DNA of 64,000 bases, from positions 1,550,001 to 1,614,000 of the forward strand of contig NC_089448.1 in NCBI RefSeq assembly GCF_026210795.1, in the 5' to 3' direction. A program made the translations under genes and the position numbers. This document shows positions 8,403 to 62,730 of the stretch, in pieces (within the stretch, counting starts at the first letter, position 1; each line of letters begins with the position of its first letter). This DNA comes from Rhizophagus irregularis. Its lineage: Eukaryota; Glomeromycota; Glomeromycetes; Glomerales; Glomeraceae. The notes under the pieces were generated by a model. It was given only the letters and a program-made list of their open reading frames with translations. It had not been told where the DNA came from and ran no database searches.

Positions 8403-8864
8403 ACAAATTTTGGGTTTTTACATTTGCACGACCTTTTCAAATAAATTATTGTTTTTGTATATTTGTATAAGATCTGAATTAATTATAAGCAAAGTATAAA
8501 ATCTTTTTGCATATAATGATATAATCTTTAATCAAACAACATGTGATCAGGTGACAGTAAGTTTATGCAACAATATAAGTTATAAATTGATTTATTCACT
8601 TTTATTAAATTGTTCTTCATAAAATATAATAAAAAAATTATATCATATATACTATTTTTTGTAACTTACCAATTATTAATATAGATTGTCAAAAAATATA
8701 AATGTGAAACCATTCCCAAAGTGTGAACTCAAAATAAATAATAAAATCCTAATTGCTTTAATATCATCAGATCTTGAAAAGCTTTCAAGTTGTTTCGCTT
8801 TTGAATATAAATATAAATGCAGGCCACTAACTAGATAATAAATGTAATTTCACTTTAACTCAAT
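8403..8864. other. 3' flank of F-box gene 1
   Basis: AT-rich DNA with no supported gene. It resembles the 3' flanks of the paralogues only in the first few tens of bases (a GGGCTTTTACATTTGC-like stretch). Confidence 0.45.
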
Positions 8865-8990: not shown

Positions 8991-10950
8991 AAAAATTTTT
9001 TTTTATTTTTTTTTGAATAATTTTAAAACCATGATGATATCATACCTCAATATTTCCTAAGAAGGTAATAAGCAATTATATTGCGGTTACTAAAATAGTC
9101 ATTGGAGGCTTATCGATCTTTAATTAGATTAAATCAATTAACCTTCTTTTTTTTTATTTTGAACACGAAATTGTCTAACATGTAAACACGTAATAAATTC
9201 ATTTTCGAAAAAAAAAAAATTATATTTTTTTTTCACAATTATTTATTTATTATAATTGACAATTAATTATTTTATTTATTAATATTATTTTATTTAATTT
9301 TATTTTATATTTATTTATTATTATTGTCAATTAGGATTTTCGTATAAACGTATATTATTAATTGTCAATATTTCCTAAAAAAATAAACAATTTTAACGTG
9401 GCTGTGATTTAATTAAATTAGTAGTTGGGGGCAGATTTAGTTAAAATATAATTTTTTTTTTATTACTAATCTCATTCGTTAAAAAAAATCGTTAATTTTA
9501 CAATAAAAAATTTTTTCAATTTTTTTTATAAATAAAACCCAAGTTCGACAGGTGATATATATATATATATAGGGAGGGTGGGCGCTACTCTAAGCGATAA
9601 TGATTAATCGCAATAAGTAATGATTATTTAAAATTTCACCCAAAGTATTCCCTTAAACGTATAGGTAGGTCATGGGAATTTCATGGAGTACATATATATA
9701 AAAAATATAAAAATAAAATTAATTATAACCTTTGCGTTACAAGGTACAAATAATTAAAATAGGGAAAATCGATGACTTGTTTTCTATCCTACGATAACAT
9801 ACGACCATTACATTACCTAATTCTGAAAAACTCCTTTCTTATACACTTCTACTAATTCAACGATTTAGTAGCGGCAACGCTATTATTTTATCTTCATTAT
9901 TATCTTATTGTTGGATAATAAAGTGACATTATGATTAAATCTTGGACTTGGTACATTAACTAAACTTCCTTCACCCCAATTAAGATTTATTGTATATAAA
10001 ATAAGCACATCATTTAAAATAATATCACTATCGGTTCTTCCGCCACACCACATAAATAAAATTTTCCATTATAGTCTATAACTCCTTTTTTCTAATTGTA
10101 TTAATTCTAGTTATTAAATAAATATGATTAAGGTTTTTTCAATTAAATTGAAGCTGGATAAATAGTTTAATTTTAAGAAATTGTTGATTTTATTATAACC
10201 AAATCCATATCCGAAATTCTCTAAATAATCACCAGATTTTTGAATAAAGATTTTAATTCAAATAGTTTAGTTAAATTAATAATTTATCAAGTAAAATGAG
10301 TATCAAAAGATGAAATGAACAGATTCTAATATATTTAATTGGTTATAAGTTTAAGATTGACGTAATAAGAAATAATAATAAAATTTATAAAAATATTTGT
10401 ACTATTTAAGTTTTTTCGAAAATACTTCTAAAAAATTATTGATAATTATTTTTTCACAATTCTTTAATTAATCCGAATTTCATTCTATACTTAAACGTCA
10501 AATCATTAATATAAATAGCTACATTATTGTAAATTTAATTGGGAATTGCTAAACGTTGCCTGGGCAATTGTCGCCTGGGTTTTTTTTATTAAAATATGTC
10601 ACATGATGTACAATATATAAAGAGTAAATTTATTTAGTCTGATTTTTCAACTTGCTAATTTTCGATCGGCTAAACTTAAAATTTTTATCGCAAGATATTT
10701 TTAAAAAAAATTGTTTTGCAAACATATTTTAATATTCAAAATAATCTTATTTAATGAAATTTTATTTGCAAATATTAAAATTTAAATCATACATTTAAAA
10801 AAATCACTGTATTTATTTTTTAATGAAGCGATACAAATAAAAGAAAAGATAAGTAAATTAAAATGATCAAGAAAAAAGATGCTAATAAAAAAAATGAAAT
10901 AACAAATGAGTAATGAAAAGTAATAGAAGATGAAAGAGAGTAAAAAAGAG
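8991..10950. other. AT-rich intergenic region
   Basis: Nothing gene-like was seen. There is a TATATATATATATA microsatellite near 9557-9570 and long T runs. Confidence 0.5.
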
Positions 10951-10956
10951 TAATAA

Positions 10957-12330
10957 GTGGGAGATGAAAAGGAGCGATGGGAAGATGAAGAGGAATAATG
11001 AGAAGATGAAGAAGGGTGATGGAAGACGAAAATGGGTGATGGGAGACAAAAGGAGGGGAAAATGAAGAGGAATAATAAGAAGATGAAGAAGGGTGATGGA
11101 AGACGAAAATGAGTGATGGGAGACAAAAGGAGTGATGAAAGATGAAAAGGAGCGATGAGAAGATGAAGAGGAATAATAAGAAGATGAAGAAGGGTAATGG
11201 GAGACGAAAAAGAGTAATAAGTGGGAGATGAAAAGGAGCGATGGGAAGATGAAGAGGAATAATGAGAAGATGAAGAAGGGTGATGGAAGACGAAAATGGG
11301 TGATGGGAGACAAAAGGAGGGGAAGATGAAGAGGAATAATAAGAAGATGAAGAAGGGTGATGGAAGACGAAAATGAGTGATGGGAGACAAAAGGAGTGAT
11401 GAAAGATGAAAAGGAGCGATGAGAAGATGAAGAGGAATAATAAGAAGATGAAGAAGGGTAATGGGAGACGAAAAAGAGTAATAAGTGGGAGATGAAAAGG
11501 AGCGATGGGAAGATGAAGAGGAATAATGAGAAGATGAAGAAGGGTGATGAAAGGCGAAAATGGGTGATGGGAGACAAAAGGAGGGGATGATGAAGAGGAA
11601 TAATGAGAAGATAAAGAAGGGTGATGGAAGACGAAAATGAGTGATGGGAGACAAAAGGAGTGATGGGAGATGAAAAGGAGCGATGAGAAGACGAAGTGGA
11701 ATAATAAGAAGATGAAGAAGGGTGATGGGAGACGAAAAAGAGTAATAAGTGGGAGATGAAAAGGAGCGATGGGAAGATGAAGAGGAATAATGAGAAGATG
11801 AAGAAGGGTGATGGAAGACGAAAATGGGTGATGGGAGACAAAAGGAGGGGAAGATGAAGAGGAATAATAAGAAGACGAAAATGAGTGATGGGAGACAAAA
11901 GGAGTGATGGGAGATGAAAAGGAGCGATGAGAAGATGAAGAGGAATAATAAGAAGATGAAGAAGAGTGATGGGAGACGAAAAAGAGTAATAAGTGGGAAA
12001 TGAAAAGGAGCGATGGGAAGATGAAGAGGAATAATGAGAAGATAAAGAAGGGTGATGGAAGACGAAAATGAGTGATGGGAGACAAAAGGAGGGGAAGATG
12101 AAGAGGAATAATAAGAAGATGAAGAAGGGTGATGGGATACGAAAAGGAGTGATGAGAGACAAAAGGAGTGATTGGAGATGAAAAGGAGCGATGGTAAGAT
12201 AAAGAGGAATAATGAGAAGATGAAGAAGGGTGATTGAAGACGAAAATGAGTGATGGAAGACAAAAAGAAGCGATGGGAAGAGATGGGAGACGAAAAGGAG
12301 TGATGAGAGACAAAAAGAAATGATGGGAAG
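10957..12330. repeat. nested C-poor minisatellite with a 264-bp higher-order unit
   Basis: The plus strand is made of variants of GATGAAGAGGAATAAT, AGAAGATGAAGAAGGGTGAT and GGAGACAAAAGGAG. The marker GTGGGAGATGAAAAGG recurs at 10957, 11221, 11485 and 11749, exactly 264 bp apart, then at 11993 as GTGGGAAATGAAAAGG. The last full unit is 244 bp because about 20 bp is missing near 11873. Copies degrade after about 12100. Because 264 is divisible by 3 and the minus strand lacks stop-forming combinations, three overlapping reverse frames of 426-581 codons stay open. Their Ser/Phe/His/Leu strings are repeat artefacts. Confidence 0.93.
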
Positions 12331-13949
12331 TGGAAAATGAAAAGATGTAATAGAAAATAATGGGAGACGAAAAGAATGAAATAATGAGAAGTAATAGGAG
12401 GTGAAAAATGATGAGAGACAAAAAATAAAAAAATGATCATGATAGGAGGTTGGGTAGCAAAAGATAATGATAGGAAACCAAGTAAAAAATAAACCATAAA
12501 GTAAAAAAAAATGAAGTTAGTAAACATATCTTTATTAACTGTAGAACCGAATAAAATTAATGAAAAACGAAATATGAAACAGAAACAAATAACTGAACCT
12601 TAATTGCAGATTCGGAGGGACTAAAAGACCTAAAAATAATGAAATAGAGTTAGTAAGAAATAAAGTGTAAGAATGTGAGTTAGAAATAAAAATAAAAAGA
12701 AAAAAAGAAAAATACCTTGAGGTTGAAAGAACCGAGGAAACGAACCTCGAACCTATAATGAAAATGAGATTCAATAAACAAATAAACATGACGCGATCAT
12801 GTGGCCAATCTGGCCAATCAAAAATACCAATTTTCAATATAATTTATATCATTCTAATATTATAATTATAATTTAATACATATTATTTTATTTTTAATAA
12901 CTTAATTATTACCTATATTAAATTCCTAATTATAAACAAAAAACCGCTGTAACCATCTATATTATAATACTATTTAAACAAACTCATTGGTCTTGGTGCG
13001 AAAAATATCTAATTTTTATAATAGACCGTAATACCAATTGAAATAATGATTTAATTGTTATCTATTGAAGATTAAAGAACGCGTGAAAGGTTATCGTTTC
13101 ACTGAGAAATCCGTTTTGATCTATTTGATCTTCTTTTTGACTACTGATTAGTCATACTTATATAATTGATTTTTACATTATAACTAATCTTAATTATGTA
13201 CGATGTAATTCTTTAATATAATAACTAGAGTAATTGAAACAATGTGTTTCTATGTGACAATTGTTTTACCAATTGATTATCGTACCATCAGTTAATACAT
13301 ATTACAATCACATTTATATTATATTTTATCCCACGGTTAAAAATTTGGGTAAAAAGTCCATCAATATTGGAATAAAAAATCAATTATTATTAGTTAAAAT
13401 AAATATATTAAAGGGCTTCATGGTACGGATACCGTGAGATAAAACAGTTATTTCACGGAGTCACATGATTTTCACGGCTGCGCTGAAATAACTATTACAT
13501 ATATTACTTATGTGTACATTATATCATATACTGTTTCTTTAATTAAATAATCAAATAATATTTAATCGTAATATGTGATATAAAAGTTATTATTACTCAT
13601 ATTACATAGTTCCGATCTTTTTTTTCATCGGGTGCAAATTTTTGTGTGTGATAATTGTATCCATCTTATCAAAATGTAATATTTTTCTCACGAGTTTAAT
13701 AATGTGAATTCATTTGAGCCATGAGTCATCCTTTGAGTCATCCTATACATGTATAAAAAAAATTATATAAATATACCCATACATACATACATGAATTTTA
13801 AAAATACGCAAAAAAAAACTTTTCTTTTTTCTTTACCAACACCGTTACTCTCAAATATACAACCTCGCACTTCTTATTTTTTTTGTTACTCTTTACTCTA
13901 CATTTCTTCCAATATATATTTCTAAATTTTTTTTAAATATCAACACAAA
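12331..13949. other. intergenic region upstream of the charged-protein gene
   Basis: No gene was supported. A short reverse frame at 12535-12837 has no features of a real gene. T-rich, pyrimidine-rich DNA at 13800-13930 just before the next ATG is typical of fungal promoters. Confidence 0.45.
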
Positions 13950-42123: not shown

Positions 42124-43268
42124 CTAATAACCCCAATCTTCAATTATACAATCATTCAAATCTTCACTTTCACTTTCAAGAATTTCATTCAACATTTTAC
42201 TAGTAAAATTATGTAAGCAACTTGTATAATATGCTTTAGGATGAGATTTAGCAGCAAGATTGTTATGCCCAACTGGTGCATTTATAAATTCCATAATATT
42301 GCTTTTTAATTCTTCACTGACTTTATAAGGATGGAAAATCCAATTTTCAATAATTTTTAGTGCTTCTTTAGAAGATGGTCTTTTTAATGGATCTTCATTC
42401 CAACATTTTTTCATTAAATCTACATAACAATGTGGAGTATTTTCAATAATTTCAGGACGTTCACCTTTACAAATACTTAAACTAAGTTGAATATCATGTG
42501 CTCTATTATTAAATGGTGGTACTCCAGATGTAAGTTCCCACATAATCATAGAAAAACTATATATATCACTAGCTGGAGTATAAGATTTTCCTCTTAAAAC
42601 TTCAGGAGCCATAAATGGTATAACACCATAAATATCATTTTTCAAAAACGATTTTACAAGTTGACATGATCCTAAATCACTAACATAAATTTTGTCCTTA
42701 TTCTTATTATTATGATTTAAAATATTGCCATCATGAAAATCACAATGAATAATATTATGTTCATGCATATCATTAAGTCCAGAAATAATTTCGTACAACA
42801 TATATAATTTTTGGTTCCAATTATTTTCAACTATTCTTGGTAAATTTTCTCTTAAATTACCTTTATTTGCATAATCCATTACTACCATATATTTCAAAGT
42901 ATTTGGATCCTCTGTAAATCCATAAAAATATATAATATCATTCGAATATAAAATACTTGTATGATATTTCCACTATAAAAAATAATAATAATTATTAATA
43001 GAAATAAATCTTAATTTTAAATTAAAAATAGAAAATAATATACTATCATACTTCTTTTAAAAATTCATTTAAATTTTCATTTAAATTCTTATGGCATTTA
43101 AGAATTACTTCTTTGTCTTTATTATTCTTTAACCAAGTAGCTTTATATATAGTACCAAATCCTCCTTCATTAAAATATTCAACAGTTTTAAATTTGTTAT
43201 AAGGAATCCATTTTAATCTATTTTTAAGAATAAAATCATCCATAATTGCATTTCCACTTTTTCCAAAT
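42124..43268 (-). CDS. protein kinase (TKL-like), kinase-domain exons
   Basis: Two exons (43268-43052 and 42972-42124) are separated by a 79-nt GTATGA...TATAG intron in phase 0. From the internal methionine at 43243 the protein is 346 residues. It has the glycine loop N-E-G-G-F-G-T-I-Y (25-33), the ATP-binding lysine in V-I-L-K (about 49), the catalytic loop H-C-D-F-H-D-G-N, metal-binding D-L-G, A-P-E in the activation segment, D-I-Y-S-F-S-M-I-M-W-E-L, and C-W-N-E-D-P-L-K-R-P. HRD is replaced by H-C-D, so it is a non-RD kinase. The exon is open upstream of 43243 (F-G-K-S-G-N-A-I before M-D-D-F) to an acceptor at 43269. That S-G-N...I-D-D-F-I linker is usual in Rhizophagus kinases, so coding probably continues into the array at 43320-51960. 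Confidence 0.9.
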
Positions 43269-46200
43269 CTATAAATTTAAATAGTTAAAAATATATTATA
43301 ACTTGTATTACAATTAACTAAAATAAATTACTTACTCTAAAATTTAAATCAGAATTCAATGTAATATAGATCTTAGTTTTTGGATAAATATATAATAACC
43401 TATAATTTACAACTTACCAACTAAAGTGATAGATATTTTTTTAAATGAAAAAATTTAGTTAACAAATAAATATTATACAAACTTTATAACAATAGAAATA
43501 TAAATATCTTACAAGCTATATCATAAATAATTTTTTAAATAAAGAATTCAAGTTATATATAAATAAGTACTAATAATAGAATTAAATAAATAACTTGTAA
43601 CTTACAATCTATTAAATAAAGAAATTAGTTAGTTAAATTATATGTAAATAAGTAATAATAGAATTACATAAATAACTTACTCCCTATATTATTTAATAAT
43701 TTTTTAAATAAAGAAATTAGTTAGTTTAAATTATAATTATATAAATAAGATAAATAAGTAATAATAGAATTAAATAAATAACTTACTTCCTATATTATTT
43801 AATAATTTTTTAATAAAGAAATTAGTTAGTTTATAATAGAATTAAACAAATAACTTATAACTTACGATCTATTAAATAAAGAAATTAGTTAGTATAAATT
43901 ATATGTAAATATTAATAAGCAATAATAGAATTAAATAAATAACTTATGGCTTACCAGCTAAATAAATTACAAAATAATTTTTAAGATAAAGAAATTAGTT
44001 AGTTTAATTATATGTAAATATTATATAAATAAATAATAATAGAATTAAATAAATTAATTTATGAATTACCAACTAAAATAAATTACAAAATAATTTACAA
44101 ATAAAAAAATTAGTTAGTCTAAATTATATATAGTAATAATAGAATTAATAAATAACTTATGGCTTACAATCTATTTAAATAAAGAATTTAGTTAGTTTAA
44201 ATTGTAATATTATAAATAAGTAATAATAGAATTAGATAAATAACATATTATCTAATAATTTTTTAAATAAAGAAATTAGTTATTAAACAAATAACTTATA
44301 ACTTACAAACTATTAAATAAAGAAATTAGTTAGTTTAAATTTTATATGTAAATATTATATAAATAAGCAATAATAGAATTAAATAAATAACTTATTATGG
44401 CTTACCAGCTAAAACAAATTACAAAATAGTTTTTTAAATAAAGAAATTAATTAGTTTAATTATATGCAAATATTATATTAATAAGCAATAGTAATAGATA
44501 AATAACTTATGAATTACCAACTAAAACAAATTACAAAATAATTTTTAAATAAAGAAATTAGTTAGTTTAAACTATATATAATATTATATAAATAAGTAAT
44601 AATAGAATAAATAAATAACTTACTCTCTATATTATTAAATAATTTTTTAAATAAAGAATTAGTTAGTTTAAATTGTAATATTATAAATAAGTAATTTTTT
44701 AAATAATATGTATAAAATAATATTATAAAAATAAGTAATAATAGGATTAAACAAATAACTTATAACTTACGATCTATTAAATAAAGAAATTAGTTAGTTT
44801 AAATTGCATGTAAATATTATAACAATAAGTAAATAATCGAATTAAATAAATAACTTACATTCTATTAGTTAATAATTATAAATAAGAAATTAGTTAGTTA
44901 GTTATACGTAAGTATTATATAAATAAATAATAACAATAAAATTACAAAATAATTTTTAAATAAAGAAATTAATTAGTTATATGTAAATTATAAATAAATA
45001 ACAGTAGAATTAAATAAATAACTTATGACCTACCAACTAAAATAAATTATTTAATAATTTTTTAAATAAAGAAATTAGTTAGTTTAAATTATATGTAAAT
45101 ATTATAACAATAAGTAATAATAGAATTAAATAAATAACTTACGCCCTATATTATTTAATAATTTTTTAAATAAAGAAATTAGTTAGTTATATGTAAGTAT
45201 TATATAAATAAATATATTAATATTAAATAAATAACTTATGACTTACCAACTGCAAAATAATTTTTTAAATAAAGAAATTAATTAGTTATATGTAAATTAT
45301 AAATAAATAATAATAGAATATCTTACCTGCTATATTATTTAATAATTTTTAAATAAAGAAATTGGTTAGTTTAAATCATAAATAAATACTATTACATAAA
45401 TATGTAATAATAGAATTAAATAAATAACTTACGCCCTATATTATTTAATAATTTTTAAATAAAGAAATTGGTTAGTTTAAATTATATGTAAATATTATAT
45501 AAATAAGTAATAATAGAATTAAATGAATAACTTACATGCTATATTATTTAATAATTTTTTACATAAAGAAATAAGTTAGTTATATGTAAGTATTATATAA
45601 ATAAATAATAATATTATTAAATAAATAACTTATGACTTACCAACTAAATAAATTACAAAATAATTTTTTAAATAAAGAATTGATTAGTTATATGTAAATT
45701 ATAAATAAATAATAATAGAATTAAATAAATAACTTACACGCTATATTATTTAATAATTTTTTAAATAAAGAAATTAGTTCATTTAAATTATATGTGAATA
45801 TTACATAAAATAAGTAATAAAAGATCAAATAAATGACTTACTCCCTATATTATTTAATAATTTTTTAAATAAAGAAATAAGTTAGTTATATGTAAGTATT
45901 ATATAAATAAATAATAATAATATTAAATAAATAACTTATGACTTACCAACTAAATAGATTACAAAATAATTTTTTTAAATGAAGAAATTGATTAGTCATA
46001 TGTAAATTATAAATAGATAATAATAGAATTAAATAAATATTTTATGGCTTACCAGCTAAAATAAATTACAAAATAGTTTTAAAATAAAGAAATTAGTTAG
46101 TTTAAATTATATATGCAAATATTATAACAATGAGTAATAATAGAATTAAGATAAATAACTTACTCCCTATATTATATAATAATATTTTAAATAAAGAAAT

Positions 46201-49200
46201 TAGTTAGTTTAAACTATATGTAAATATTATAACAATAAGTAATAATAAAATTAGATAAACAACTTACTCCCTATATTATTTAATAATGTTTTAAATAAAG
46301 AAATTAGTTAGTTTAAATTATATGTAAATATTATAACAATAAGTAATAATAGAATTAAATAAATAACTTATAACTTACAATCTATTAAAATAAAGAATTT
46401 AATTTGTTTAAATTATATATAAATTATATAATAAATAACTTGTAACTTACAATCTAGTATTAAATAAAGAAATTAGTCAGTTTAAATTATATGTAAATAA
46501 GTAATAATAGAATTACATAAATAACTTACTCCCTATATTATTTAATAATTTTTTAAATAAAGAAATTAGTTAGTTTAAATTATATGTAAATATTATATAA
46601 ATGTAATAATAGAATTACATAAATAACTTACTCCCTATATTATTTAGTAATTTTTTAAACAAAGAAATTAGTTAGTTTAAATTATATGTAAATATAATAT
46701 AAACAAGCAATATTAGAATTAAATAAATAACTTACAAACTATTAAATAAAGAAATTAGTTAGTTTAAATTATATGTAAATATTTATAACAATAAGTAATA
46801 ATAGAATTAAATAATAGCTTACAAACTATTAAATGTGAAAATTAGTTAGTTTAAATTATATGATAAATAGTAAGAATTAAATAAATAACTTACTCTCTAT
46901 ATTATTTAATAATTTTTTAAATAAAGAAATTAGTTAGTTTAAATTATAATTATATAAATAAGTAATAATAGAATTAAATAAATAACTTACTCCCTATATT
47001 ATTAATAATTTTTTAAATAAAGAAATTAGTTAGTTTAAATTATATGTAAATATTATATAAATGTAATAATAGAATTAAATAAATAACTTACACCCTATAT
47101 AATTAAATAATTTTTTAATTAAAGAAATTAGTTTAAAATATATAAATATTATATAAATAAGTAAATAAATAACTTAATAGCTTACGATCTATTAAATAAA
47201 GAAATTAGTTAGTTCAAATTATATATAAATATTATATAAATAAGTAATAATAGAATAAATAAATAACTTATAACTTACGATCTATTAAATAAAGTAATTA
47301 GTTAATTTAATTATAGGTAAATATTATATCAATAAGTAATAATAGAGCTAAATAAATAACTTATAACTTACGATCTATTAAATAAAGTAATTAGTTAATT
47401 TAAATTATATGCAAATATTATATAAATAAGCAATAATAGAATTAAATAAATAACTTATGGCTTACCAACTAAAATAAATTACAAAGTAGTTTTTTTAAAT
47501 AAGAAAATTACTTTGTTTAAATTATATGCAAATATCATATAAATAAGTAATAATAGAATTAAATAAATAAATTATAAGCTATAACTTACGAGCTATTAAA
47601 TAAAGAAATTAGTTAGTTTAAATTACTATATGTAAATATTATATAAATAAATAACTTACTCTCTATATTATTTAATAAAGAAATTAGTTAGTTTAAATTA
47701 TTTATAAAAAATATAAATAAGTAATAATAGAATTAAATAAATAACTAATAACTTACGATCTATTAAATAAAGAAATTAGTTAGTTTAAATTATAAGTAAA
47801 TATTATATAATAAGTAATAATAGAATTAAATAAATAACTATTAACTTACGACCTATAAAATAAAGATATTAGTTAATTTAAATTATATGCAAATAATATA
47901 TAAATAAGTAATAATAGAACTAAATAAATAACTAATAACTTACGATCTATAAAATAAAGAAATTAGTTAGTTTAAATATATGTAAATATTATATAAATAA
48001 GTAATAATAGAATTAGATAAATAACTTACTATCTATATAATCAAATGATTTTTTAATTAAAGAAATTAGTTTAAATTATATGTAAATATAATATAATAAG
48101 TAATAATAGAATTAAATAATAACTTACAAACTATTAAATGTAGAAATTAGTTAGTTTAAATTATATGTAAATATTATATAAATATGTAATTATAGAATTA
48201 AATAAATAACTTACTCTCTATATTATTAATAATTTTTAAATAAAGAAATTAGTTAATTTAAATTATATTTAAGTAATAATAGAATTAAATAAATAACTTA
48301 CTCCCTATTATTTATTAATTTTTTAAATAAAGAAATTAGTTAGTTTAAATTATATGTAAATTTTATATAAATGTATTAAATAAATAACTAATAACTTACG
48401 AACTGATAAATAAAAAATTAGTTAGTTTAAATATTATATAAATGAGTAATAATAGAATTAGATAAATAACTTAACTTAAATAAAAAAATTAGTTAAGTTA
48501 TATGTAGATATTATACAAATAAGTAAGAATAGATTTAAATAAATAACTATGACCTACCAACTAAAATAAAATTTTTTAATAAAGAAATTAGTTAGTTTAA
48601 ATTATATATAAATGATATATAAATATGTAATTATAGAATTGAATAAATAATCTACCCCCTATATTATTTAATAATTTTTTAAATAAAGAAATTAGTTCAT
48701 TTAAAATATATAAATATCGTATAAATAACTTGACAGAAACTTCAAGATCGTAGCGATAGCTTAATGCACAGTAACTGCATTATAAATTCCAGTCTGGAAT
48801 GTGTGGCAGATTATGCTGAATATATTAGCTTTAGAGTAAGGAGTGATGGTTAGTGGTTTAAGTGTCACATGATCATGTGCAAGCCTGAGGTTCAAAAACA
48901 CTATTTATCTGAGAGACGTGTTTTTTTTAGTGGTCCAAAACTTATTTGTCACCTGTTATTTGTTACTGATTTTGGTGTAACCTGTCACACATTTTTGGAT
49001 GTGCGTTATAAATACATAGTGACCACATTATGTAATCGTAAATAAATTATATATATGCAGTTAATGTGCATTAAGCCATCGCTATGATCTTAAAAAGAAG
49101 TAATAATAGAATTAAATAAACTACTTACTCCCTATATTATTTAATAATTTTTTAAATAAAGAATTCAAGTTATATATAAATAAGTAATAATAGAATTAAA

Positions 49201-51943
49201 TAAATAACTTATAACTTACAATCTATTATATAAAGAAATTAGTTAAGTTATATGTAAATATTTTATAAATAAGTAATAATATAGTTAAATAAATAACTTA
49301 CTCTCTATATTATTTAATAATTTTTAGATAAAGTAATTAGTTAGTTTAAATTATATAAAATATTGTATAAATAAGTAATAATAGAATTAAATAAATAACT
49401 AATAACTTACGATCTATTAAATAAAGTAATTAGTTAGTTTAAATATATGTAAATATTATATAAATAAGTAATAATAGAATTAGATAAATAACTTACTATC
49501 TATATTATTTAATAATTTTTTTAATAAAGAAATATATTAGTTTAAATTATATGAAATATTATATAATAAGTAATAATAGAATTAAATAATAACTTACAAA
49601 CTATTAAATATAGAAATTAGTTAGTTTAAATTATATGTAAATATTAGATAATAAGTAATAATAGAATTAAATAATAACTTACAAACTATTAAATATAAAA
49701 ATTAGTTAAGTTATATGTAAATATTATATAAATAAGTAATAATATAATTAAATAAATAGCTTACTCGCTATATTATTTAATAATTTTTTAAATAAAGTAA
49801 TTAGTTAGTTTTAATTATATGTAAATATTGTATAAATAATAAGTAATAATAGAATTATATAAATAACTAATAACTTACAATCTATTAAATAAAGAAATTA
49901 GTTAGTTTAAATCATATGTAAATATTATATAAATAAGTAATAATAGAATTAGATAAATAACTTACTATCTATATTATTTAATTATTTTTTTAATAAAGAA
50001 ATTAGTTAGTTTAAATTATATGTAAATATTATATAATAAGTAATAATAGAATTAAATAATAACTTACAAACTATTAAATAAAGAAATTAGTTAGTTTAAA
50101 TTATATGCAAATATTATATAATAAGTAATAATAGAATTAAATAATAACTTACAAACTATTAAATATAGAAATTAGTTAGTTTAAATTATGTGTAAATATT
50201 ATATAATAAGTAATAATCATCAAATAAATAACTTATGACCTACCAACTAAAATAAATTATAAAATAATTTTTTAAATAAAGAAATTAATTTAAATTATAT
50301 GTAATTATTATATAAATATGTAACCATAGAATTGAATAAATAACTTACTTGCTACATTATTTAATAATTTTTTAAATTAAGAAATTATTTATTTCAAATT
50401 ATATGTAAATATTACATAAATAAGTAATAATAGAACTAAATAAATAACTTACACCCTATATTATTTAATAATTTCAAATAAAGCAATTAGTTAGTTTAAA
50501 TTATATATAAATATCATATAAATTAGTAATAATAGAATTAAATAAATAACTTATAACTTACGATCTATTAAATAAAGAAATTAGTTAGTTCAAATTATGT
50601 GTAAATATTATGTAATAAGTAATAATAAACTCAAATAAATAACTTATGACCTACCAACTAAATTAAATTACAAAATAATTTTTTAAATAAAGAAGTTAGT
50701 TAGTTTAAATTATATGTAAATATTATATAAATATGTAATTATAGAATTGAATAAATAACTTACTCCCTATATTATTAAATAAAGAAATTAGTTGGCTCAA
50801 ATTATGTGTAAATATTACATAAATAAGTAATAATAGAATTAAATAAATAACTTACACCCTATATTATTTTATAATTTTTTAAAGAAAATAGTTAGTTTAA
50901 ATTATATATAGACATTATGTAAATAAGTAATAATAGAATTAAATAAACTACTTACTACTCCCTATATTATTTAATAAAGAAATTAGTTAGTTTAAATTAC
51001 ATGTAAATATTACAATAATTAAGTAGTAATAGAATTAAATAAACTACGTACTCCCTATATTATTTAATAAAGAAATTAGTTACTAGTTTAAATTACATGT
51101 AAATATTACATAAATAAGTAATAATAGAATTAAATAAACTACTTACTCCCTATATTATTTAATAATTTTTTAAATAAAGAAATTAGTTAGTTCAGTTATA
51201 CTGTATATAAATAAGTAATAATAGAATTAAATAAATAACTTACTTCCTATATTATTTAATAATTTTTTAAATGAAGAAATTGGTTAGTTTAAATAAGTAA
51301 TAATAAAGTTAAATAAATAACTTATGACTTACCAACTAAAACAAATTACAAAATAATTTTTTAAATAAAGAAATTAATTAGTTTATAAATGTTATATAAA
51401 TAAGTAATAATAATAGAATAAATAAATAACTTATGACTTACCAACTAAAACAAATTACAAAATAATTTTTTAAATAAAGAAATTAGTTAGTTTAAATTAT
51501 ATAAATAATAGAACTATGAATACCAATACCATATTATAACTTACACCCTATAGTATTATTAATTATTATTAATTAGTTAGGTATAAATATGATATAAATG
51601 TATTTACTGTAAGTTAACATATATTACTTACAATCTAGTTATTTAAATTAAGAATATAATTAGTTAAATTATATTAAAATATTAAACAAATAAATACAAT
51701 ATATATATTGTAACTTACCATCTGTAATATAATTAATTATTAAATAGTTATTTAAATAAAGAATTTAGTTATTTGAATGTTACGTAAAATAAATGAAGCA
51801 AATTATTAAAAATTTATATAACTGATAACTTACTAACTATAGTATTATTAATCATTAAATAAATTATTTAGTTATATGGAATACAATAAAAAATAATGAG
51901 TAATTGAGTAATTCATCATCATTCAATTATATAAACTTACGAG
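43269..51943 (-). CDS. candidate micro-exon array of the kinase gene (84 micro-exons)
   Basis: On the minus strand the motif TAG-NNN-GTAAG recurs 83 times between 51943 and 43418, and once as TTTTAG-A-GTAAG at 43336. Micro-exons in transcript order include 51943-51941, 51836-51834, 51721-51719, and so on to 43420-43418. At least 24 different trinucleotides occur, most often GGA, TTG, ATC, TTT and ATT. The site at 50956-50961 can be read as 6 nt. Intervening sequences are about 80-110 nt, each with an AACTAAC branch site. The 5' exons deliver phase 1, the array adds 3n+1 nt, and the kinase exon requires phase 2: the frame closes. No stop arises in phase 1. Whether the spliceosome recognises 3-nt exons here is unproven; a non-spliced intron minisatellite is the alternative. 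Confidence 0.5.
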
Positions 51944-51960
51944 CTAAAAAAATATTTAAT
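43320..51960 (-). repeat. tandem array of ~100-bp intron-like units
   Basis: About 85 imperfect copies of one unit occupy roughly 8.6 kb. On the plus strand a unit reads AATAATAGAATTAAATAAAT, AACTTAC, NNN, CTATATTATTTAATAATTTT, TAAATAAAGAAATTAGTTAG, TTTAAATTATATGTAAATAT. Units group into sub-types by the trinucleotide and its flank (tcc-CTATATTATTT, gat-CTATTAAAT, caa-CTAAAATAAATTACAAAAT). Units at about 44240, 44945 and 48475 have lost the donor or acceptor. A few donors vary (GTAGG at five sites, GTAAT at two), and acceptors are CAG at 45250, 48403 and 51722. One transposon-like insertion lies at 48744-49091. Confidence 0.95.
48744..49091. mobile_element. TIR element with tRNA-like promoter boxes inside the array
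   Basis: Inverted ends of about 37 bp (left from 48744, right to 49091; AAGATC-x-TAGCGAT-x-GCTTAATGCACA) bound 348 bp unrelated to the array. Inside are an A-box-like TGGTTAGTGG (48847-48856) and a B-box-like GGTTCAAAAAC (48889-48899) around the palindrome CACATGATCATGTG, suggesting tRNA-derived sequence. No target duplication was found because the flanks are themselves repetitive. Confidence 0.65.
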
Positions 51961-52080
51961 ATAATTTTTATATAATATAGTTAGTCTAAATTATATTTGC
52001 ATATTACATAAGGTATAATTATAGTTGGTATTTGAGTTGTTTATAAATAAAAATTTAATATTTTAGCTTGTTTGATATAC

Positions 52081-52448
52081 CTTTAGATTCCTTGGTATTA
52101 CTTCCTTCAAACTCCTCAATACTACTTCTTTCAAATTCTTCAGTGCCATTCCCCTCAAATTCTCTAGTGCCACTTTCTTCAAATCCTTCAATATTACTGG
52201 GAACTAGTTTTGTTATATTGCAAATTTGGTTTAATTATATTTGATTATTTACAATTAAATTTTTTTAATAAATAAAAATCTTTATATTTCATCTTTGTTT
52301 TGTATATTATATTTACCTTTAGGTTCCTTGATATTATACAAATCTAGTTTTATTATATTGCAAGTTTGTTTTAAAAATTTTGAATAATTTAATTTATATT
52401 ATTATATATTTATGCTATATGCTTACCTTCACCAATACATTGACCCAT
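52081..52448 (-). CDS. 5' exons of the kinase gene (M-G-Q-C start, octapeptide repeats)
   Basis: Three exons are predicted on the minus strand: 52448-52427 (22 nt, ATG to GAAG, donor GTAAGC), 52343-52317 (27 nt, acceptor AACTAG, donor GTAAAT) and 52203-52081 (123 nt, acceptor AACTAG, donor GTATAT). All junctions are phase 1 and the joined frame is open. The product begins M-G-Q-C-I-G-E, compatible with N-myristoylation at Gly2 and palmitoylation at Cys4, which would anchor the kinase to a membrane. Exon 3 encodes four octapeptide repeats of the form F-E-x-(S/N)-x-(T/I)-x-E. Exons 2 and 3 both end in K-E-(P/S)-K, hinting at exon duplication. The next coding sequence downstream in the same phase is the micro-exon array. 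Confidence 0.6.
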
Positions 52449-62037: not shown

Positions 62038-62730
62038 TAGAGCTCCGAATGGGTCAGGTCAGGTCAGGTTAATTGATAAACCTGACCTGAAATTTTTTTT
62101 CAGGTCAGGTCAGGTCAGGTTATATCAGGTTGTCTGTTTGACCTGACCTGACCTGAAACCTGAAAATTTCAGGACTATTTTTATTAAAGTATTGAAAAAA
62201 AACGGTACAAAACTTTTTTTTTTAATATAATATTATGAAAAAAAACGTTTTTGCAACGTTTTTTATTAAAATATTGAAAAAAAATATTGCAAAACGTTTT
62301 TTTTAATATAACATTATGAAAAAAATGTTTTCGCAATGTTATTATTGAAATATAAAAAAAAAAACGTTACGAAACATTTTTTTAATATAATATTATGAAA
62401 AAACGTTTTCGCAACGTTTTTCTCGAAATATCGCAACTCACTTTTATTATATAAAATCAATATAAAAAAGTGAATCGCAATACCGCAACTCACTTTTTTT
62501 ATATAGAATCTATATAAAAAAGTGAATCGCAATACTGCAACTCACTTTTATTATATAAAATCAATATAAAAAAGTGAATCGCAATACTGCAACTCACTTT
62601 TATTATATAGTAGAATCAATAGTTTCAGGTCAACAGGTCAATCAGGTCAGGTCAATCTTCATACCTGACCTGAATTTCAGGTCAGGTCAGGTCAGGTTTC
62701 CTAAATTTGGCTGACCTGTTCGGAGCTCTA
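62038..62730. mobile_element. hAT-type MITE, 693 bp, with AGGTC subterminal repeats
   Basis: Inverted ends TAGAGCTCCGAA are flanked by a perfect 8-bp duplication GTCCAGTA (62030-62037 and 62731-62738). Both subterminal regions are arrays of CAGGT/ACCTG words (62049-62160 and 62627-62716). The interior (about 62400-62610) has tandem ~54-bp units, each a hairpin between CTCACTTTT and AAAAGTGA. No coding capacity was seen. It shares its termini with 34138-34288. Confidence 0.92.

Follow-up and report, generated by a model that had tools for sequence, protein, structure and literature searches.

A constitutive exon of one nucleotide (nt) has been described in the Arabidopsis gene APC11, where it was tested with reporter constructs (PMC4674806), and CYP621A of Fusarium shows an exon formed by one G, which is supported by reads and conserved among related genes (PMC12940212). 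Isolated 3-nt exons are found in animals, such as the exon of 3 base pairs in RPS24 and the single-codon insertion of PICALM (PMC12686416, PMC11162997, PMC4148152), and the bicycle genes of aphids are rapidly evolving genes with many small exons, nearly all of one phase, including a megacycle gene with more than 100 microexons (PMC9168663). Here, we analyze a 64,000-nt stretch of Rhizophagus irregularis DNA (contig NC_089448.1, positions 1,550,001 to 1,614,000; hereafter the window), whose minus strand contains a protein kinase gene with an array of 3-nt units and a single A. These are very probably coding, being joined into a linker ahead of the kinase.

The exon of APC11 resembles the 1-nt exon of the window gene in its size, but it is a single isolated plant exon, whereas the one proposed here would end a chain of 3-nt exons and is known from sequence (PMC4674806). 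An earlier, sequence-only reading of this locus had appealed to a reported precedent for one-nucleotide exons in plants. CYP621A is likewise fungal, and its phase-1 boundary joins a phase-2 exon only through one added base, but it has a single G exon and no array (PMC12940212). RPS24 and PICALM share with the window gene an exon of one codon; however, such exons are single or few and are not known to form an array. The nearest case with many microexons is that of the bicycle and megacycle genes, which differ in being insect genes for putative effectors (PMC9168663). A literature search, with subscription papers mostly outside its reach, found no published report of an array of one-codon exons among the papers listed, and we rate the window gene as an extreme case among microexon genes. 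The exons of bicycle and megacycle genes are longer than 3 nt and are not known to form a tandem satellite of introns. The micro-exon genes of schistosomes show chains of small symmetric exons and encode variable proteins, with longer exons and secreted products.

Frame of the window gene

The kinase portion of the window gene corresponds to the NCBI protein P0001 (R. irregularis DAOM 181602/197198). According to the sequence-only reading, the three 5' exons total 172 nt and end in phase 1, the first kinase exon (43268-43052) has to be entered in phase 2, and the array offers only multiples of three besides one single-nucleotide site at 43336 that supplies the missing base. All of this was borne out. 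The 5' exons sum to 22 + 27 + 123 nt, that is, 57 x 3 + 1, and their direct joining to the kinase exon is out of frame (...TKESK-DLEKVEMQLWMILFLKID-stop), with a stop after 18 codons, as had been claimed in general terms. The array contributes 82 triplet units and a single 6-nt unit, followed by the single A. All pieces joined give 1,491 nt with one open frame of 496 amino acid residues, in which the kinase is entered as E-F-G-K-S-G-N. The joined protein belongs to the protein kinases (PF07714/PF00069), since residues 172-418 match PF07714 with an E value of 1.5e-39 and 136.3 bits, above the curated cut-off of 23.1. Its amino end reads MGQC, and we take this putative MGxC end to be a possible lipid anchor by N-myristoylation/palmitoylation.

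In the window alone this closure makes the reading plausible and is not proof, because the phase would close by chance in about one third of cases and a chain of 83 units would stay open in about one tenth (at the stop rate of about 2.7% per pair that is found for units at lags 2-12).

The array and the one-base site in the paralogues

The genome (G000, 146.7 Mb in 32 contigs, in which the window is G000:C20:1550001-1614000) was searched with the protein P0002; of 6,266 candidates 91 were scored, yielding 130 match rows. We fetched 20 stretches of about 10 kb, representing 19 loci, and 20 tails of 1 kb; the 20 array loci analyzed below are these 19 and the window. All 19 fetched loci carry an array on the sense strand, and the chains analyzed comprise 9 to 63 units each. 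In L027, where the array is split by a gap, 11 units were counted, and units beyond the longest run of each locus were excluded likewise. Where recovered, the 5' part of the array is usually CTC/CTT, a TTN/TCN unit, ATG/ATA, ATT and GGT. The window array starts in this usual form (CTC 51943, TTA 51836, ATG 51721, ATT 51634, GGT 51547), which in phase 1 reads A-[LF]-[DNH]-[DN]-W. The end of exon 3, GAATCTAAAG followed by GTA, is also found in L019, L020, L023, L024, L025, L027 (twice), L029 and L037; the two copies of L027 are in tandem, at positions 1799 and 2739.

A one-base site is present at the matching place in 38 of the 40 loci, distributed as 19 of the 20 array loci and 19 of the 20 tails, and it is an A in 37 of them and a T in L030. 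The two remaining loci are L027, whose stretch ends upstream of the site, and L042, which is interrupted by foreign sequence. The 27-nt core of the site has 46 genomic copies with up to one mismatch, against none for the reversed control, and 40 of these copies sit 319-477 nt ahead of a same-strand kinase match of the P0002 search. The other six comprise L028, whose kinase was found by tblastn, one copy about 3.7 kb upstream of L042, and four others. Furthermore, the frame from the ATG to the kinase is open in all five loci that were assembled (the window, L019, L020, L029 and L037), although in L020 exon 2 was missed by the search pattern. The site thus shows one nucleotide between an AG and a strong donor, is conserved, and is needed for the frame in the five assembled loci. 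Once the paralogues are counted, the phase argument lies far beyond chance.

Two of these loci show further changes. In L030, near locus position 8616 in the sense direction, AG/GTAAGT with 0 nt stands where the last 3-nt unit would normally be, and the one-base site is the T. In L042 (G000:C17:4227766-4228765), a kinase copy, unrelated sequence interrupts the first kinase exon, and a one-base element is found about 3.7 kb upstream at C17:4231856.

The size of the units is nearly constant. A weight-matrix scan of the 20 arrays, which allowed spacers of 0-15 nt and used acceptor and donor matrices trained on 3-nt sites, found a spacer of 3 nt at 619 of 637 in-array sites. The remaining 18 rows are seven of 1 nt, five of 6 nt and six of 7-12 nt. 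Those of 1 nt are the terminal A in five cases, a T inside the last intron of L029, and an AGT unit of L037 with a shifted AG; those of 7-12 nt are, by inspection, weak or overlap a 3-nt reading. The donor is GTAAGT in 651 of 708 units of the 20 loci, and weak donors occur at a few window units, for example GTACGT at 51054. Introns show a median length of about 95 nt in the window and 98 nt in the 20 loci, and their lengths are even modulo 3 (219, 222 and 247 of 688). A few long introns of the window (136-172 nt) may hide decayed units. The window gene shows the many consecutive tiny putative exons of one phase that define microexon genes, with 82 of them 3 nt long and a single one of 6 nt.

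One array intron of the window is 470 nt long because it holds an insert resembling a miniature inverted-repeat transposable element (48741-49094), with 40-nt terminal inverted repeats that are 90% complementary; this insert is outside the mechanism proposed below.

Stop avoidance at the unit junctions

Exon 3 ends in phase 1. In this phase, which is the one that the single base imposes, each linker codon would take its first letter from the end of one unit and its other two from the start of the following unit, about 95 nt away in the DNA. Among 688 such neighbour junctions of the 20 loci there is one stop. This lone stop involves a unit of L035 with the donor GTAAAT and becomes TGG if that unit is skipped; L035 lacks the usual array start in the fetched stretch. 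Six array-edge units had been removed before this count (the first of L021, L026 and L031, the first two of L033, and the last of L023+L022), and the count that retains them likewise gives one stop. In a strict set, limited to 3-nt units with GTAAG or GTAGG donors, 26 further units with weak donors or 6 nt were removed and their neighbours joined, leaving no stop in 662 junctions.

Control pairs show many more stops. Pairs at lags 2-12 gave 12-20 stops and reversed neighbours 18. Shuffling the order of the units gave 18.3 +/- 3.3 stops (minimum 6 of 20,000), and a random circular lag per locus, which keeps the repeat structure, 19.2 +/- 3.3 (minimum 9 of 20,000) or, with the strict donors, 18.4 +/- 3.3 (minimum 8 of 20,000). 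When each distinct neighbour pair is taken once, there are no stops in 222 pairs, compared with 12 of 222 for the reversed pairs and 7-12 at lags 2-8. All three stop codons are missing if L035 is left out: TAG 0 vs 7.0 expected, TGA 0 vs 4.1, and TAA 0 vs 1.4; the depletion is thus carried by TAG and TGA. Read in phase 2, the junctions show 95 stops, and that phase was rejected. Avoidance is absent from pairs at lag 2 (17 stops in 668), which suggests that full inclusion of the units is what selection mostly sees.

Translation of an mRNA that joins adjacent 3-nt exons is the only explanation we see for stop avoidance confined to one order, one phase and direct neighbours, and the splicing of the units is inferred from this selection.

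Variability of the unit letters

In 455 pairs of units with the most similar flanks, the three unit letters differ in 26, 13, and 45% of the pairs, respectively, compared with a mean of 7% per position and a maximum of 20% in 45 control windows; taken together, the unit letters are more variable than the surrounding introns. One unit form of 35 places has at least 396 genomic copies, with none for the reversed control, and 100 copies among the matches listed, with 32 flanking bases identical throughout, differ in their triplet, of which 18 versions occur. That AG and GT do not vary was not used as evidence, because the units were selected by those letters. In phase 1 the two fast letters would be codon positions 1 and 2, and the slow letter, which is within the control range, position 3, a pattern that fits diversifying selection on a hypervariable linker; a mutational or splicing-related cause may also be involved.

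We tentatively propose, as a possibility rather than an expectation, that the array acts as a codon amplifier: a satellite of an intron plus exactly one codon, in which unequal exchange alters the linker by whole codons while the three exon letters are under strong diversifying selection. The kinases would then form a large membrane-anchored family, whose hypervariable linkers may be related to recognition.

Proposed mechanism

The 85 introns (median about 95 nt) of the array pre-mRNA would be removed by intron definition, probably stepwise, because a 3-nt exon is presumably too small, from what is generally known of splicing, for factors to occupy both of its sides simultaneously. Each step would add one codon-sized exon onto the growing 5' exon, until the terminal A, together with the base that opens the kinase exon, fills the codon G-A-A (Glu) and the frame enters the kinase. 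The predicted product has the MGxC amino end, an acidic repeat stretch, a linker of 84 residues and the kinase domain. Linkers so predicted would differ widely among the paralogues in length and sequence, and tandem duplication of an intron with its 3 nt would make them longer or shorter by whole codons, without frameshift. We would guess that the linker is a variable docking or recognition segment.

If RNA confirms this structure, it would be the longest run of the smallest exons found in our searches, since a single gene would contain more than 80 exons of one codon besides one of a single base; all 19 other array loci have similar arrays. It bears on the minimum size of exons and on how the spliceosome could pass dozens of 3-nt exons without skipping, and would provide a natural example of protein variation built up one codon at a time through intron duplication.

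Alternative explanations

Several points weigh against a coding array read in phase 1. Among the public models of these kinases, P0001 starts at an internal ATG, and P0002, P0008 and P0018 are joined differently. An annotated protein with a phase-1 linker was sought, and none scored among 9 candidates; a search with residues 1-98 of P0002 matched only P0002 itself among 108 candidates, so public proteins lend no direct support. With L035 left out, the non-stop codon GTC is absent from the junctions too (0 vs 2.6 expected). The 20 array tails, which are outside the stop test, show no stops in 81 junctions where 1.4 are expected, a result of low power (chance of none 0.19). The loci are paralogues of one genome and neighbour pairs are partly dependent. 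The third unit base is the most variable and the second the least, resembling codon wobble in phase 0, and stops are rare in phase 0 as well (1 of 712 vs 18.0 +/- 3.7 in a column shuffle). As regards the public models, ultra-short exons are frequently missing from annotation according to one report (PMC12409088), and the models are for this reason probably wrong. The sequence-only reading had named a different phase solution as what would speak against it; such solutions do exist as public gene models (P0002 and others), but they fit worse.

The alternative that survives best, although we consider it unlikely, is that the array is skipped in a minor or alternative isoform, with exon 3 joined to an acceptor that lies within the kinase exon (ATAG/ATGATTTT) to give ...ESK-DDFIL. 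Joins of this type are shown by the models P0008 and P0018, and 9 of 14 loci inspected read ATTATAGATGATTTT at this place; however, the window gene reads ATTATGGATG, without that internal AG, and skipping leaves the stop avoidance unexplained. Such a join may coexist with the inclusion of the units.

It is very improbable that the units are whole codons in phase 0, with a donor 4 nt further on at the last acceptor and the kinase exon preceded by AGTAA (Ser-Lys), an exon of 5 nt. P0002, the model of L019, carries GEEGILELVIELLLGIG...GIEL-SKFGKS, which corresponds to the L019 units in phase 0 plus AGTAA, the models P0012 and P0020 (loci unmapped) resemble it, and AGTAA followed by GTAAT is found in 11 of 14 loci inspected. 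However, P0002 omits the first four units of L019 and lacks three more (ATC, GGT and CTT). Moreover, exon 3 ends in phase 1, and P0002 therefore has to shift the phase through an additional exon of 23 nt, in which 20 nt of intron are added to a unit, whereas the phase-1 reading of L019 with the single A stays open and requires nothing of the kind. Units reading TGA interrupt phase 0 in L035 and L049 as well as at C6:472196 and C6:473260. That stops are rare in phase 0 would be due to the scarcity of units beginning with TA or TG and to conflicts between splice sites, since TAA or TGA units would probably make competing donors. The avoidance across neighbouring units is left unexplained by phase 0. 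Phase 0 with AGTAA was rejected as the principal reading on the phase of exon 3, the TGA units and the neighbour stop avoidance.

Equally poor is the prospect that the array is a satellite, lying in one 8.8-kb intron or between two genes, with the kinase starting at the ATG 43243 and the 5' exons forming a separate or dead gene. The array is indeed a tandem repeat and P0001 is annotated from that ATG, within kinase exon 1, but untranslated repeats predict no stop avoidance restricted to one order, to distance one, and to the last base plus the next two.

Recursive (ratchet) splicing across the array with nothing retained in the mRNA is scarcely credible: the units resemble ratchet points in having AG close to GTAAGT, and L030 has its one AG/GTAAGT site, but at ratchet points GT follows AG directly (0 nt), so that no nucleotide separates the acceptor from the regenerated donor, whereas the units keep 3 nt there and their letters follow a codon rule.

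Features of the window

The coordinates of the window gene are collected in Table 1.

Table 1. Features of the kinase gene in the window (window positions; a slash marks an exon boundary)
Feature	Coordinates	Strand	Description
Exon 1	52427..52448	-	22 nt; MGQCIGE, MGxC amino end; phase 1 at 3' end; matches P0002 model exon (MGQCIC...) at L019
Exon 2	52317..52343	-	27 nt; phase 1 to 1; agrees with P0002 model
Exon 3	52081..52203	-	123 nt; 3' end AAAG/GTATAT, phase 1
Unit array	43418..51943	-	83 units, each an intron of about 95 nt and then AG/NNN/GTAAG; 82 putative 3-nt exons and one 6-nt exon
First unit CTC	51941..51943	-	Opens the array
6-nt unit GGAGTA	50956..50961	-	Sole unit of the window array that is not 3 nt
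Penultimate unit CTT	43513..43515	-	CTT precedes the last unit in 29/38 terminal-site loci, window included
Last unit TTG	43418..43420	-	TTG, TCG or TCA in 36/38 terminal-site loci, window included
Putative 1-nt exon A	43336	-	TTTTAG/A/GTAAGT, just before the kinase exon; contributes the 3n+1
Kinase exon 1	43052..43268	-	217 nt; acceptor TTTATAG/ATTTGG; entry phase 2
Kinase exon 2	42124..42972	-	Contains the stop codon
Predicted linker peptide			TVGTFAWPVGLEYQIAVYFADR

Elsewhere in the window, an open reading frame of 581 amino acids on the minus strand (10782-12527) runs across purine-rich tandem repeats of 264 nt with a strong GC skew. In addition, two adjoining tandem-repeat arrays, one with a 79-nt and the other with a 52-nt period, are found at 62178-62609.

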